Origin: Pseudomonas syringae KCTC 12500
GTDB taxonomy: Bacteria; Pseudomonadota; Gammaproteobacteria; Pseudomonadales; Pseudomonadaceae
Assembly (NCBI RefSeq): GCF_000507185.2
Contig: NZ_AYTM02000002.1
Location: forward strand, 1,821,501-1,885,500
Length of the DNA stretch: 64,000 nucleotides
Reading direction: 5' to 3'
Both the position numbers and the translations under genes were made by a program. Within the stretch, counting starts at the first letter, position 1; every line of letters starts with the position of its first letter. Below the pieces are notes generated by a model. The model was not told the origin of the DNA, did no database searches, and worked only from the letters and a program-made list of their open reading frames with translations. This document shows, one piece after another, positions 16,512-60,557 of this stretch.

Positions 16512-16643
16512 GCGAACTTGTTCGCGAAGACGCTCGCTCAGGCGATAGATTTTTGGAAACCTTAACGGCACCTTCGCGGACAAGTCCGCTCCTACGCCCG
16601 TTGGGCAGAATCAAAACGGCCTCCTGCCCGAGGGGCGTAGGAG
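16512..16643. repeat. First unit of the ~130-bp REP-containing tandem array
   Basis: This unit carries the same order of motifs as the units beyond the IS: palindrome GCGAACTTGTTCGCG, GAAGACGCTCG, then TTCGCGGACAAGTCCGC, ACGCCCGTTGGGCAGAATC, and GTAGGAG at the end. The IS110 element separates it from the remaining units, so the array was continuous before insertion. Confidence 0.85.
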
Positions 16644-16666
16644 ATTCTATGGTTTTGGGAAAGCCC

Positions 16667-17614
16667 TCAAGCCACTTTTGTTTGATATTCGCTCTGGTTC
16701 TTTAACAGAGCGAAGACTACTCGAGCCAACTTTCGGGAGAGCATGACCAGCGCTTGAGTTGTACTAAAGCCACGCTTTCTCTGCTCTTCATAAAAAGGCT
16801 TCCAGGCCGGCGTACGGCTCCCGGACATAGCCGCGTTGTGCAGCAACCGTCGGGCTTCTGGATCGCCGCGTTTGGTCAATCGACGAGGTCCATCACTTTG
16901 CCCTGATTTGGATACTCTCAGGTCCAGCCCAAGAAACGCGATAAAGGCGTTCGCTCCGCTGAACTCGCCTCGCTGAAAAGAAGTGACCAAACGAGCTGCA
17001 GTCAGAAAGCCGATCCCCTCTACTTTCATACAGCGGTTGACCTGCCTCATCAGCCCGGCTTCCTGCAGTACATCGCGAATCTTCTTTTCAACGAGCGCCT
17101 CAAATCGTTTCATCGAGTTGACCTGATTGGCGAACGCTGTTCTCAGAAAAGGCTCGTTGGTCCAGCTTTGTACCAGGCCAGTACGAGCCTGAACCAAGGC
17201 TGCACGACGTCGGAACAGGCTCAGAAGCTGCCGATAAAGCGGGCTCGCAGGTATCCAGGGCCGCAACTCATCAAGCTCGTTTTTCAGGTATCGGGCCAAC
17301 AAACGAGCATCTTGGGCATCGGTTTTGGCGCGTATGTTGACGCCTTTACGGTAATGACTGAGCTGATAGCCATCCACCATATAAATGTCACAGCCTGCTT
17401 CGTGGGCCGCATCCGCGAACAGGACGTGATAGACGTTAGTGGCTTCGATGGCGATGGCGCAGCTGCTCGCCAAGGCCTTCAGCCATTGGGTGATGGCGAC
17501 TTTGGTATTGGGGATTGCCTCAAGTCGATCATATTGATCGTGGTAGATCACCAGCTCATTCTTGGCGACATCTACACCGATGATCGGTTTTTGCAGAGTA
17601 ACCCGCATTGCCAT
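16667..17614 (-). CDS. IS110-family DEDD transposase, copy 1
   Basis: 315 aa. The N-terminal RuvC-like DEDD domain begins IIGVDVAKNELVIY (first Asp) and includes IAIEATNVYH (Glu) and AKTDAQDARLLARYL (Asp-x-x-Asp). The C-terminal Tnp_IS110/IS116 domain has VEGIGFLTAARLV, NAFIAFLGLDLR and the serine-containing AAMSGSRTPAWKPFYEE region, where the catalytic serine of IS110 recombinases lies. These enzymes act with a guide (bridge) RNA encoded in the IS. The protein is full length and identical to copy 2, so it is probably active. The ATG is preceded by GAGGAGGCGTT. Confidence 0.95.
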   Translation of the reverse strand: MAMRVTLQKPIIGVDVAKNELVIYHDQYDRLEAIPNTKVAITQWLKALASSCAIAIEATNVYHVLFADAAHEAGCDIYMVDGYQLSHYRKGVNIRAKTDAQDARLLARYLKNELDELRPWIPASPLYRQLLSLFRRRAALVQARTGLVQSWTNEPFLRTAFANQVNSMKRFEALVEKKIRDVLQEAGLMRQVNRCMKVEGIGFLTAARLVTSFQRGEFSGANAFIAFLGLDLRVSKSGQSDGPRRLTKRGDPEARRLLHNAAMSGSRTPAWKPFYEEQRKRGFSTTQALVMLSRKLARVVFALLKNQSEYQTKVA

Positions 17615-17640
17615 AACGCCTCCTCGGGGATAAGGTTTAC

Positions 17641-17810
17641 AGACTTGAAGGGGCCACCCAGAGGCGCAGGCTTGTTTCTATCGTAGGTTGTGAGCCTTAA
17701 GCATTCTTTATCGGCGCTTGGGTGAAAGGAGGAGGGGTGAAATCTCCTACGGGTCTGTACTGCGCGAACAGTCAGAAGCGAACTAAGTCCCTCCTCCTCC
17801 CTTCAAGTCT
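17641..17810 (-). ncRNA. Candidate bridge RNA of the IS110 element, copy 1
   Basis: On the transposase strand the ~170-nt segment is closed by a perfect stem, AGACTTGAAGGG (17799-17810) with CCCTTCAAGTCT (17641-17652). A 9-bp stem GGAGGAGGG/CCCTCCTCC (17789-17797 with 17728-17736) bounds a first loop. In it AGTTCGCTT (17776-17784) equals the left target half, and GTAGGAG (17744-17750) is the complement of the right half CTCCTAC. The second loop carries AGAATGCT (17700-17707), close to the IS end AGAAT-CT, and ACAAG (17671-17675), complement of the other end CT-TGT. This matches the target-loop and donor-loop plan of IS621-type bridge RNAs, including the CT core. Expression is inferred. Confidence 0.75.
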
Positions 17811-17819
17811 TACCATACA

Positions 17820-18535
17820 AGCGAACTTGTTCGCGAAGACGCTCGCTCAAGCGATGCATGTTCGGAAAGCTTAACGGCCCCTTCGCGGACAAGTCCGCTC
17901 CTACGCCCGTTGGGCAGAATCAAAAACGGCCTCCTGCCCGAGGGGTAGGAGCGAACTTGTTCGCGAAGACGGTCGTTCAGGCGATGCATGTTCGAAGGCT
18001 TGGCGGCCCCTTCGCGGACAAGTCCGCTCCCTACGCCCGTTGGGCAGAATCAAAAACGGCCTCCTGCCCGAGGGGTAGGAGCGAACGTGTTCGCGAAGAC
18101 GGTCGTTCAGGCGATGCATGTTCGGAAGGCTTGGCGGCCCCTTCGCGGACAAGTCCGCTCCTACGCCCGTTGGGCAGAATCAAAAACAGCCTTCTGCCTG
18201 AGGGGTAGGAGCGAACGTGTTCGCGAAGACGGTCGTTCAGGCGATGCATTTTCGGAAAGCTTGACGGCCCCTTCGCGGACAAGTCCGCTCCTACGCCCGT
18301 TGGGCAGAATCAAAACGGCCTCCTGCCCGAGGGGTAGGAGCGAACTTGTTCGCGAAGACGGTCTTTCAAGCGATGCATTGTCGGGAAGCTTAACGGCCCC
18401 TTCGCGGACAAGTCCGCTCCTACGCCCGTTGGGCAGAATCAAAAACAGCCTTCTGCCTGAGGGGTAGGAGCGAACTTGTTCGCGAAGACGGTCTTTCAAG
18501 CGATGCATTTTCGGAAAGCCTGGCGGCCCCTTTGC
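17820..18535. repeat. Tandem array of ~130-bp REP-containing repeats
   Basis: The palindrome GCGAAC(T/G)TGTTCGCG recurs at about 17821, 17951, 18081, 18211, 18340 and 18470, giving five full units and a partial sixth with a 129-130 bp period. Each unit also holds the opposing REP CTTCGCGGACAAGTCCGC and the sequence CCGTTGGGCAGAATCAAAA. Several long frames cross the array because the repeat has few stops; they are not genes. With the unit left of the IS, the array had seven units. Confidence 0.9.
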
Positions 18536-18632
18536 GTCCTCTATTTCGCAGCTTTGAGCAGCAGGCTCGCGATCAGGTCAGCTAATCCGCTAGCATGACG
18601 CTTCGCCTCGCACAGCTTTCCGGACGCCCCTC

Positions 18633-26344: not shown

Positions 26345-26747
26345 GAAAAGCTCCTGATTGATTGGCTCTGATTGGCCATACAGCTAATCGACCCTGGCCG
26401 GCGGTGAGGGTTCAACCGGCTCTGGCACCGCGCCATTATTCTTTAGCGGGAGGGGCTCAGGACAAGCGTTGCAATGCGGACACAGCAGCGTGTGCTGCGA
26501 GCGGAAAGAAAACAGAATCGTCAAAACGCAAACAAAGAAAACCCCGCCGAAGCGGGGCTTTCCAGACTGTTTCCCTGATTTCCCTTTCACCCCGCCATCC
26601 TGGCAGGCTTCCCTACGTGTCCCTGTTATGTCTTGTTGCGCTTCCTGCGCTACGTCCATGAGCAAAGATTAACTTTGGATCCCTTTCTTGGGAAGAGGCC
26701 AATTGGCGTCACGTAGTGTAAGCAAATGCTTACAAGACTTTTCCGGG
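26345..26747. other. Intergenic region between yqaE and an acyl-CoA dehydrogenase
   Basis: About 400 nt. Three overlapping short frames cross it, but all run through the terminator hairpin at 26540-26560 and none has a family resemblance. It holds the yqaE promoter and the dehydrogenase terminator. Confidence 0.4.
26536..26559 (-). terminator. Terminator of the acyl-CoA dehydrogenase gene
   Basis: CCCCGC-TTCG-GCGGGG on the minus strand is followed by TTTTCTTTG. It lies ~190 nt after the dehydrogenase stop. On the plus strand it is followed by CTTTCC and may work weakly in both directions. Confidence 0.75.
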
Positions 26748-29994: not shown

Positions 29995-30290
29995 AAGGGG
30001 TTATCTCCTACCCGGCATCTGGATGACTGGCTGGGCTGATGGCATTGTGCCCCTCCCCAGCAAACAATGCATCGGCAGGATCAACAAACAACTTAATTTC
30101 TGTAACGGCAGGAAGTGGGAAATGTTTATTGCGGGCGTCTAGCGCCCATGCGTTGGCATGCATTGGGTAACGCTCCGCGTCGTGCTGCAACGTCATGCTT
30201 TGCCTGTCATCACTGCACCTAAAAGCGCTTTTTTATCGCGATGTTACTGACGACGCAAATTGCGACGTAAGTGACGGCTGAGTCCTGGCG
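29995..30290. other. Intergenic gap upstream of the diguanylate cyclase gene
   Basis: About 300 nt with no recognised gene. The minus-strand frames crossing here have no ribosome binding site. It should carry the promoter of the cyclase gene, not resolved by eye. Confidence 0.35.
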
Positions 30291-30451
30291 CTGATCCGGG
30301 GGTAGCCTGGCAGGACGCCAGGCTAGCCGCACCGGGCCATGGAGGGCCCGTTGCGGCGACCCCCGGATCAGTGACAGGGCGAAGGAACCCGACGAAGTCG
30401 GGCCGGAAACGGAGCTGCGGGCTTTGCCTACTTTGTCCCCATCAAAGTAGG
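30291..30451. repeat. Multi-hairpin structured intergenic element
   Basis: The outer arms CTGATCCGGGGGT (30291-30303) and ACCCCCGGATCAG (30359-30371) are perfect complements. Between them lie TAGCCTGGC/GCCAGGCTA (30303-30311 with 30317-30325) and GCCGCACCGGGCC / GGGCCCGTTGCGGC (30326-30338 with 30344-30357), so the 81-nt block folds as a three-way junction. Two more hairpins follow: CCCGACGAAGTCGGG (30388-30402) and CCTACTTTG/CAAAGTAGG (30427-30435 with 30443-30451). A 121-codon minus-strand frame covers it but looks like a by-product. It resembles a dispersed repeat rather than a gene. Confidence 0.7.
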
Positions 30452-58934: not shown

Positions 58935-59197
58935 GTGTGAAAGCCAGTCTTCGCGAACAAGTTCGCTCCTACGCCCTTCGGGCAGAAGCAGACCGTGAGC
59001 CCTCAGCTTCTGGCCGCAGGCCGTAGGAGCGAACTTGTTCGCGAAAAACACTCTCACGCCCTACGGCAGAAGCAAACCGTGACCCCTCAGCTTCTGGCCG
59101 CAGGCCGTAGGAGCGAACTTGTTCGCGAAAAACACTCTCACGTCCTGCGGCAGAAGCAAACCGTGATCCCCCAGCTTCTGGCCGCAGGCCGTAGGAG
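58935..59197. repeat. REP array 2, left part (84-bp period)
   Basis: GTAGGAGCGAACTTGTTCGCG recurs with an 84-bp period (GTAGGAG at 59023, 59107, 59191), each unit also holding CAGCTTCTGGCCGCAGGCC and CGGCAGAAGCAAACCGTG. The leftmost REP at 58949-58970 is inverted. The last unit is split by the IS110 copy at 59198. Confidence 0.88.
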
Positions 59198-59220
59198 ATT
59201 CTATGGTTTTGGCAAAGCCC

Positions 59221-60168
59221 TCAAGCCACTTTTGTTTGATATTCGCTCTGGTTCTTTAACAGAGCGAAGACTACTCGAGCCAACTTTCGGGAGAGCATGA
59301 CCAGCGCTTGAGTTGTACTAAAGCCACGCTTTCTCTGCTCTTCATAAAAAGGCTTCCAGGCCGGCGTACGGCTCCCGGACATAGCCGCGTTGTGCAGCAA
59401 CCGTCGGGCTTCTGGATCGCCGCGTTTGGTCAATCGACGAGGTCCATCACTTTGCCCTGATTTGGATACTCTCAGGTCCAGCCCAAGAAACGCGATAAAG
59501 GCGTTCGCTCCGCTGAACTCGCCTCGCTGAAAAGAAGTGACCAAGCGAGCTGCAGTCAGAAAGCCGATCCCTTCTACTTTCATACAGCGGTTGACCTGCC
59601 TCATCAGCCCGGCTTCCTGCAGTACATCGCGAATCTTCTTTTCAACGAGCGCCTCAAATCGTTTCATCGAGTTGACCTGATTGGCGAACGCTGTTCTCAG
59701 AAAAGGCTCGTTGGTCCAGCTTTGTACCAGGCCAGTACGAGCCTGAACCAAGGCTGCACGACGTCGGAACAGGCTCAGAAGCTGCCGATAAAGCGGGCTC
59801 GCAGGTATCCAGGGCCGCAACTCATCAAGCTCGTTTTTCAGGTATCGGGCCAACAAACGAGCATCTTGGGCATCGGTTTTGGCGCGTATGTTGACGCCTT
59901 TACGGTAATGACTGAGCTGATAGCCATCCACCATATAAATGTCACAGCCTGCTTCGTGGGCCGCATCCGCGAACAGGACGTGATAGACGTTAGTGGCTTC
60001 GATGGCGATGGCGCAGCTGCTCGCCAAGGCCTTCAGCCATTGGGTGATGGCGACTTTGGTATTGGGGATTGCCTCAAGTCGATCATATTGATCGTGGTAG
60101 ATCACCAGCTCATTCTTGGCGACATCTACACCGATGATCGGTTTTTGCAGAGTAACCCGCATTGCCAT
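59221..60168 (-). CDS. IS110-family DEDD transposase, copy 2
   Basis: 315 aa, identical in protein sequence to copy 1, with the DEDD residues (GVDVAKNE, IEATNVYH, KTDAQDARL) and the C-terminal domain intact. Preservation of the protein while the DNA shows a few silent differences suggests both copies are recent and functional. Downstream of its 3' end only 23 nt remain to the IS edge. Confidence 0.95.
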   Translation of the reverse strand: MAMRVTLQKPIIGVDVAKNELVIYHDQYDRLEAIPNTKVAITQWLKALASSCAIAIEATNVYHVLFADAAHEAGCDIYMVDGYQLSHYRKGVNIRAKTDAQDARLLARYLKNELDELRPWIPASPLYRQLLSLFRRRAALVQARTGLVQSWTNEPFLRTAFANQVNSMKRFEALVEKKIRDVLQEAGLMRQVNRCMKVEGIGFLTAARLVTSFQRGEFSGANAFIAFLGLDLRVSKSGQSDGPRRLTKRGDPEARRLLHNAAMSGSRTPAWKPFYEEQRKRGFSTTQALVMLSRKLARVVFALLKNQSEYQTKVA

Positions 60169-60194
60169 AACGCCTCCTCGGGGATAAGGTTTAC

Positions 60195-60364
60195 AGACTT
60201 GAAGGGGCCACCCAGAGGCGCAGGCTTGTTTCTATCGTAGGTTGTGAGCCTTAAGCATTCTTTATCGGCGCTTGGGTGAAAGGAGGAGGGGTGAAATCTC
60301 CTACGGGTCTGTACTGCGCGAACAGTCAGAAGCGAACTAAGTCCCTCCTCCTCCCTTCAAGTCT
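60195..60364 (-). ncRNA. Candidate bridge RNA of the IS110 element, copy 2
   Basis: Sequence equals the copy 1 candidate. Closing stem at 60195-60206 with 60353-60364; target-loop segments at 60330-60338 (AGTTCGCTT on the minus strand) and 60298-60304 (GTAGGAG); donor-loop segments at 60254-60261 and 60225-60229. The target in array 2 is the same motif as in array 1, as the segments predict. Confidence 0.75.
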
Positions 60365-60373
60365 TACCATACA

Positions 60374-60557
60374 AGCGAACTTGTTCGCGAAAAACACTCT
60401 CACGCCCTGCGGCAGAAGCAAACCGTGATCCCTCAGCTTCTGGCCGCAGGCCGTAGGAGCGAACTTGTTCGCGAAAAACACTCACGCCCTACGGCAGAAG
60501 CAAACCGTGATCCCCAGCTTCTGGCCGCAGGCCGTAGGAGCGAACTTGTTCGCGAAA
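60374..60557. repeat. REP array 2, right part
   Basis: Continues the 84-bp repeat after the IS: REP palindromes GCGAACTTGTTCGCG at 60375, 60459 and 60540. The last ends 13 nt before the RAYT pseudogene stop. The array has five units in all when the IS is removed. Confidence 0.88.

Follow-up and report, generated by a model that had tools for sequence, protein, structure and literature searches.

The window analysed here, a stretch of 64,000 nucleotides from the genome of Pseudomonas syringae KCTC 12500, contains an IS110-group element inserted at a REP sequence, and it raises the question of how the element finds that particular REP variant. A preliminary description, made from the letters of the window, had proposed that the 5' non-coding end of the element folds into a bridge RNA with target guides directed at the REP and donor guides directed at the element's own ends. 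This reading is supported by our analysis. We give a probability of about 93% to the interpretation that the element is an IS621-like member of the IS110 group, that its LE encodes a bridge RNA of ~170 nt that guides insertion into one REP variant, and that the left guide of this RNA changes with the REPs of the host. Coordinates below are window positions, and the element, its gene, its RNA and its half-sites are all read on the minus strand.

The element measures 1176 bp (16644..17819), with ends defined by the CT cores and by the differing outer flanks of seven copies in its own genome; the range of 17641-17820 given in the preliminary description is right for the RNA. From the sequence, the CT core lies at 17820..17821 on the left side and at 16642..16643 on the right side. 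Right flanks start with CT in all 168 parsed copies for which they could be read, and the left CT, which is part of the search anchor, is judged from the element's own copies. The core is flanked by the REP half-sites AAGTTCG (left target, 17822..17828) and CCTAC (right target, 16637..16641), both also seen in the genome copies, and the joined flanks read CAAGTTCG-CT-CCTACGCC. In all seven copies, the left flank ends in AAGTTCG-CT and the right flank starts with CTCCTAC, while the sequence farther out differs. A second one of these copies is in the window (59198..60373, minus strand), with 3 differences in 1176 positions and the same REP variant. The element has a long LE (205 nt ahead of the ATG) and a short RE (~23 nt past the stop), as in the IS110 group and opposite to the IS1111 group, and, again as in the IS110 group, it has the CT core at both ends and a short subterminal inverted ATA/TAT repeat around the donor, here CCATA/TATGG. 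The outer base of this repeat covaries in the 168 copies that have both ends (CCATA/TATGG in 91, ACATA/TATGT in 67), with CCATA/TATGC as the exception in 10.

Several further features of the surroundings were recorded. The element is bordered by a tandem REP array of 5.5 copies of a 130-bp unit (17820..18536, no strand assigned), and REP-containing tandem arrays adjoin both window copies, the second with units of 84 bp (58971-59197) and 81 bp (60374-60557). Another copy in the same genome (G000:C2:23551-24825; L007, L008) carries an internal tandem duplication of 80 bp near the 3' end of the transposase gene; as 80 is not divisible by three, its reading frame should shift at the duplication. 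Rfam matches in the window comprise an RsmY sRNA (26538-26659, minus strand, 133 bits) and, barely over the cut-off of 43, a TwoAYGGAY RNA (30275-30387, plus strand, 46.2).

The transposase/recombinase (16667..17614, 315 aa) matches both DEDD_Tnp_IS110 and Transposase_20 in Pfam (PF01548 and PF02371, both over cut-off), and its solved relatives in a PDB search are IS621 (8wt6, E 1.2e-20) and ISCro4 (9t56). It thus has the DEDD RuvC-like domain and the Tnp domain with a conserved serine that mark the IS110 group. When placed by eye on the phmmer alignment, D15, E57, D99, D102 and S237 align with D11, E60, D102, D105 and S241 of IS621, whose essential residues are named in PMC11208158.

The region ahead of the gene is predicted to form an RNA (17642..17809) in which an outer stem encloses a target loop and a donor loop. 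This bears out the closing stem and two internal loops that had been proposed for the transposase strand: the minimum free energy is -72.3 kcal/mol against a mean of -59.0 for shuffled sequences (z -2.8), and none of 200 shuffles was as low. The outer stem is formed by CCCCTTCAAGTC (17642-17653), its closing arm, and GACTTGAAGGG (17799-17809). In the first loop, which is the target loop, the stem joins 17789-17800 to 17728-17737, and a hairpin between the two target guides occupies 17754..17776. The left target guide with core, AGTTCGCT (17777..17784), is identical to positions 17820-17827 of the insertion site. The preliminary description had given this match as the nine bases AGTTCGCTT; since the joined flanks read as above, the true match is 8 nt and the ninth base (T) belongs to the IS. 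In the 7-nt left guide, six positions and both core bases match, and the guide T faces the first A of AAGTTCG as a mismatch. The complementarity of the right target guide GTAGGAG (17744..17750) to the right half CTCCTAC is exact, as had been proposed, and CTCCTAC is present in the element's own seven copies. Both guides in order, the left-target 8-mer upstream of the right-guide 7-mer, occurred in 16 of 400,000 first-order Markov sequences of the same composition. The target of this element would be AAGTTCGCTCCTAC.

The donor guides, which had been said to fit the two IS ends around a CT core, fit more loosely than that. The right donor guide ACAAG (17671..17675) is the exact complement of CTTGT at the start of the LE. 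The left donor guide AAAGAATGC (17701..17709) fits the RE end loosely: AAAGAAT agrees with ATAGAAT at six of seven positions and is followed by GC instead of CT. It is nearly invariant in a 21-row alignment, and the donor loop and the donor ends vary little among the copies.

To place these guides in a wider context, we collected relatives of the transposase. At E 1e-60 or better they occur in 21 of 149 genomes of the genus, the element's own included, and at 1e-80 in 50 of 398 genomes, with at most five candidates per genome scored. The named holders among the best 120 of 783 protein matches include, as protein matches, P. syringae, P. gingeri, P. frederiksbergensis and P. koreensis, and a single-protein scan of genome contigs gave one relative, from P. 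gingeri, with a transposase 78% identical (L039; genome G070, also L010). With 120 further stretches fetched, 172 copies were parsed in 47 Pseudomonas genomes; these are the 50 with matches less G282, G355 and G389. Three stretches held no element by the anchor (L036, L090, L132), four were duplicates (L008, L009, L030, L039), and L159-L188 and L209-L230 stand outside the counts, ten of them having been inspected by eye. In the copies read from P. gingeri and the other Pseudomonas, the end sequences, donor loop and CT core are the same as in our element; what differs is the left target guide, in most cases in agreement with the REP variant at the site.

The predicted two-loop fold of the LE is conserved among these relatives. 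When each of the 21 distinct target loops was folded by minimum energy, the outer stem, the target stem and the donor arm formed in all 21 and the inner hairpin in 20 (L018, in which the donor loop is lost, stands apart from the fold set and the alignment), so the absence of a conserved fold, named beforehand as grounds for rejecting the bridge RNA, is not what is found. The target stem is GGAGGAGGAGGG/CCCCTCCTCC in our element and elsewhere starts with GGGGTGGTGGG or GGGGTGGGCGGG; as these alternative starts carry fitting partners, the paired positions change together, and one of them is U-A or C-G among related sequences. RNAalifold on the MAFFT alignment showed double changes in only three of 30 pairs, owing to poor alignment of the target stem from clade to clade, and the folding of single sequences gives the clearer view. 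The covariance model of the RNA, R1, has seven matches in the element's own genome. Shortened RNA regions were seen in L018 and L221 (G091) and in L222 and L228 (G065); the G091 copies lack the donor loop and retain the target loop and an open transposase frame.

Next, we compared the guides with the flanks. In 136 of 152 copies, two bases separate the left guide from the conserved TCTGA anchor that follows it. The match of the guide to the insertion flank is perfect (7 of 7) in 84 of the 172 copies and exact or by wobble only in 101; a score under 5, as expected if the same loop occurred at unrelated targets, is rare (four copies). The 22 distinct loops, set against their modal flanks, matched at 133 of 154 positions, where permutation gave a mean of 110.9 (sd 3.5) and none of 20,000 permutations was as high. 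Counted by genome, the 47 genomes matched at 295 of 329 positions against a permutation mean of 256.0 (0 of 20,000). Different target loops at correspondingly different sites, the observation that the preliminary description had asked for, are thus found across the genus.

Agreement of this kind could arise from common descent, as close relatives share guides and REPs and the independent changes are far fewer than 172. When flanks were shuffled within three clades of the transposase tree, which hold 44 of the 47 genomes (G005, G009 and G080 left out), the match remained at 276.5 of 308 against 245.0 (0 of 50,000 shuffles). The element's own clade alone (19 genomes) gave 125.5 of 133 against 112.2, the second clade (17 genomes) 109 of 119 against 96.6, both with 0 of 50,000, and the third (8 genomes) 42 of 56 against 36.2, with 142 of 50,000. 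The 'clade A' of the test by genome is a split by target-stem type with 21 genomes, two of which, G009 and G080, the tree places outside the own clade. As the association holds within clades, it argues against protein and REP simply having been inherited together, with the reservation that the clades still contain close relatives. The variation in the RNA is concentrated in the left guide, with a mean pairwise difference in the 21-row alignment of 0.452 (45% of positions) against 0.079 (8%) in the donor-loop strands, 3% in the right guide and 25% in the remaining RNA; loop and stem columns are partly misaligned there, which inflates the figures for the left guide and the remaining RNA. Between our element and that of P. 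gingeri (G070), the guide loop differs at six of 12 bases and the RNA outside it at 12 of 109. On these alignments, the predicted left guide is complementary to its target and covaries with it.

The right guide does not appear to track its flank clearly. It hardly varies, and there are exceptions: the right guide of G080, GTGAGAG, faces CTCCCAC in 6/6 copies, and that of G070, GTGGGAG, belongs to a copy at CTCCCAC, while most of the listed G070 AAGCCGG sites are CTCCTAC. The left guide has misfits too, and the fit is imperfect in some clades. In G005, G127 and G382, the loop reads AAGCTCG with an extra T, yet nine of 12 parsed copies lie at AGGCTCG, an A-C mismatch. At least one mismatch between guide and flank was found in each of G066, G212, G244, G300, G363 and G091, and the single copy in G333 has the guide AAGCCGG at the site AAGCCAG. 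An rG:dT mismatch is described at the IS621 target by Durrant et al. (PMC11208160); this precedent would cover the cases of guide G and target A, not the A-C ones.

Two individual copies are of note in their own right. L046 (G185), one of the four copies scoring under 5 of 7, has a left flank that is not REP-like next to the IS; ahead of its CT stand 16 bases that are also found in the right flank (CTCCCACATTTGGTAG), with a REP-like half-site, CAAGCCC, close upstream of this repeat. This looks like an imprecise insertion or a rearrangement. L218 (G022, a copy on C9 that stands outside the counts) has the guide AAGCTTG at the flank AAGCTTG, an exact match; the counted copy of G022 lies at AAGCTCG.

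The REP variants themselves differ strongly between hosts. Seven site variants were counted in 22 of the 47 genomes. The element's own site, AAGTTCGCTCCYAC, is present 153 times in its genome, compared with 0-9 times for the remaining 21, and AGGCTCGCTCCYAC is found 0 times in its own genome and 1000 and 1041 times in two genomes with the guide AGGCTCG. The variant AGGCTCG is absent from the element's own genome and numbers 304-1041 in the five genomes of the set with that guide; some further genomes have it in quantity too (784 in G124). For RAATTCG, the count is 262 in G018, where the guide reads CAATTCG, and no more than one in any of the other 21. Tests of abundance took in 20 of the 22 scanned genomes (the guides of G080 and G216 were left out), with the misfit genomes G005, G127, G382, G066, G212, G244, G300, G363 and G091 outside the test of the commonest variant. 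The variant that fits the guide is the commonest in 16 of the 20 genomes (permutation mean 4.0, maximum 12, 0 of 100,000), where 'commonest' means the commonest of the seven, which were chosen from guides and flanks already seen. When the element's own genome (G000) and G018 were set aside, this held for 14 of 18 (mean 4.3, maximum 13, 0 of 100,000). In the exceptions, the guide's variant ranks second (G039, G251 and G295) or third (G124).

This correspondence is what would be expected if the element inserted into any REP and guide and flank agreed only because one REP variant dominates each genome. The positions of the copies speak against it. The 20 genomes contain 92 parsed copies, 88 in the seven classes and four outside, and 81 of the 88 lie at the guide's variant, where abundance predicts 51.6 (0 of 200,000 simulations). 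Where another variant is commoner, in the four exception genomes, 21 of 23 copies still lie at the guide's variant against 6.2 expected (0 of 1,000,000 simulations); these simulations assume independent copies, an assumption that inheritance of copies may violate. G124 is an example, with six of seven copies at AAGCTCG (107 sites) in the presence of 784 AGGCTCG sites. Site choice follows the guide and not abundance. Abundance alone also gives no reason for target letters in the RNA, and we regard it as a highly improbable explanation.

Another possibility is that the transposase itself recognises REP hairpins by protein-DNA contact, the likeness of the loop to the REP being due to shared ancestry or to a REP fragment captured in the LE. 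REPs are palindromic hairpins whose recognition by transposase domains was proposed in older work (PMC1525189), and REP-targeting elements and their REPs can be co-inherited in related genomes. Recognition by protein does not, however, account for covariation that persists under shuffling within transposase-tree clades, for copies that pick the guide's variant where another REP variant outnumbers it (the 21 of 23 above), or for a guide that in most copies keeps one register of a conserved fold. We consider it very unlikely, if slightly less so than abundance alone. The folded 5' end might also be no more than a regulatory 5'-UTR or sRNA without a targeting guide, as the transposase of ISPpu9 is regulated by two sRNAs and a structured 5'-UTR (PMC8450116). 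Such regulation predicts neither guide-flank covariation nor copies that follow the guide, and the two roles can coexist; as the whole explanation, it has the smallest chance of the three, close to none.

Under the favoured bridge-RNA reading, the recombinase would use the two loops of the RNA, the first to pair with the REP half-site variant AAGTTCG-CT-CCTAC and the second with the IS ends after their joining (RE-LE), and strand exchange at the CT core would bring the circular IS into REPs. Formation of the circle, a promoter at the RE-LE junction, binding of the RNA, cleavage by the serine and CT strand exchange would proceed as described for IS621, and by this analogy the element in the window is probably transcribed and able to recombine. 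Across Pseudomonas, the donor loop stays nearly fixed while the left target guide shifts to fit host REP variants.

The element is of an already known type. The insertion of IS621 into E. coli REPs, a predicted bridge RNA of ISPpu10 and guide-target covariation across thousands of IS110 elements are in print (Durrant et al. 2024, PMC11208160), as is the insertion of ISPpu9 and ISPpu10 at one point of the Pseudomonas REP with a 2-bp repeat (AG for ISPpu9; PMC1525189). With IS621, as described in PMC11208160 and PMC11208158, it shares an IS110-group recombinase with aligned catalytic residues, the CT core, a long LE with a two-loop RNA, left and right target guides, putative donor guides, a REP target and the ATA/TAT subterminal repeat. 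Unlike IS621, it belongs to another genus with another REP sequence, its protein is distant (77 bits, phmmer), it is known from its sequence, and its predicted fold has an outer stem that closes both loops and no separate 5' stem-loop. It also resembles, by description, ISPpu9 and ISPpu10 of Pseudomonas putida, which are IS110-family elements that use one REP point (PMC1525189, PMC8450116), with sRNAs of ~180 nt at ISPpu9 (PMC8450116).

The orphan ssr9 units of ISPpu9, which are flanked by A and B boxes (PMC8450116), read like an LE RNA with both IS ends and without a transposase. This gave the idea of mini-elements that consist of a bridge RNA only, which we rejected for the present data. R1 has 129 matches in 24 genomes, and in 124 of the 126 copies parsed there, the RNA adjoins 230 or more codons uninterrupted by a stop; of the remaining two, one has stops and one is at a contig end. 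Within the sample of 149 genomes, R1 matches occur in 27, six of which have no transposase match (G046, G065, G095, G102, G142 and G146). The copies inspected in G095, G102, G142 and G146 run into contig ends, and the RNA region in G065 is shortened. Two of the three copies in G046 are short elements of 677-680 bp (L225, L227), and in the one whose sequence was read, the transposase contains a run of N, an assembly gap.

How the guides changed within the genus can be followed on the transposase tree. The tree has 47 rows. Its 18 guide labels could not be accounted for with fewer than 17 changes; at least 22 are required, and the labels are clustered (shuffled mean 33.9). Two copies in G289 (L050 and L141) differ by one base in the guide loop, one in the hairpin, none of 829 transposase positions and six in the final 120 bases, a stretch that takes in the gene's 3' end. 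Their guides differ by G for A, wobble lets the same site accept both, and both lie at AAGCTCG. We lean towards the view, with some reserve, that the bridge RNA of this one subfamily is a fast-changing host-range module in which the left guide is repeatedly rewritten to match whichever REP variant a new host has, with the donor loop kept constant. Selection for available sites may drive these changes. If this is true, natural genomes record a stepwise, possibly adaptive reprogramming of an RNA-guided recombinase, the G289 pair included.

Bridge RNAs can be reprogrammed in the laboratory (PMC11208160). In open-licence literature other than preprints, judged by titles and the openings of abstracts, we found no report beyond the 2024 papers of bridge-RNA guides that track host REP variants within a genus. 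What is added here is a natural record, within one genus, of guides that change to fit host REP variants, with one element family set in many REP landscapes and with data that separate guide-directed choice from site abundance. The collection provides matched pairs of guide and target that include mismatches, wobbles and shifts of register and can be taken straight to assay, and the natural retargeting of an RNA-guided transposon thus becomes a directly testable question.
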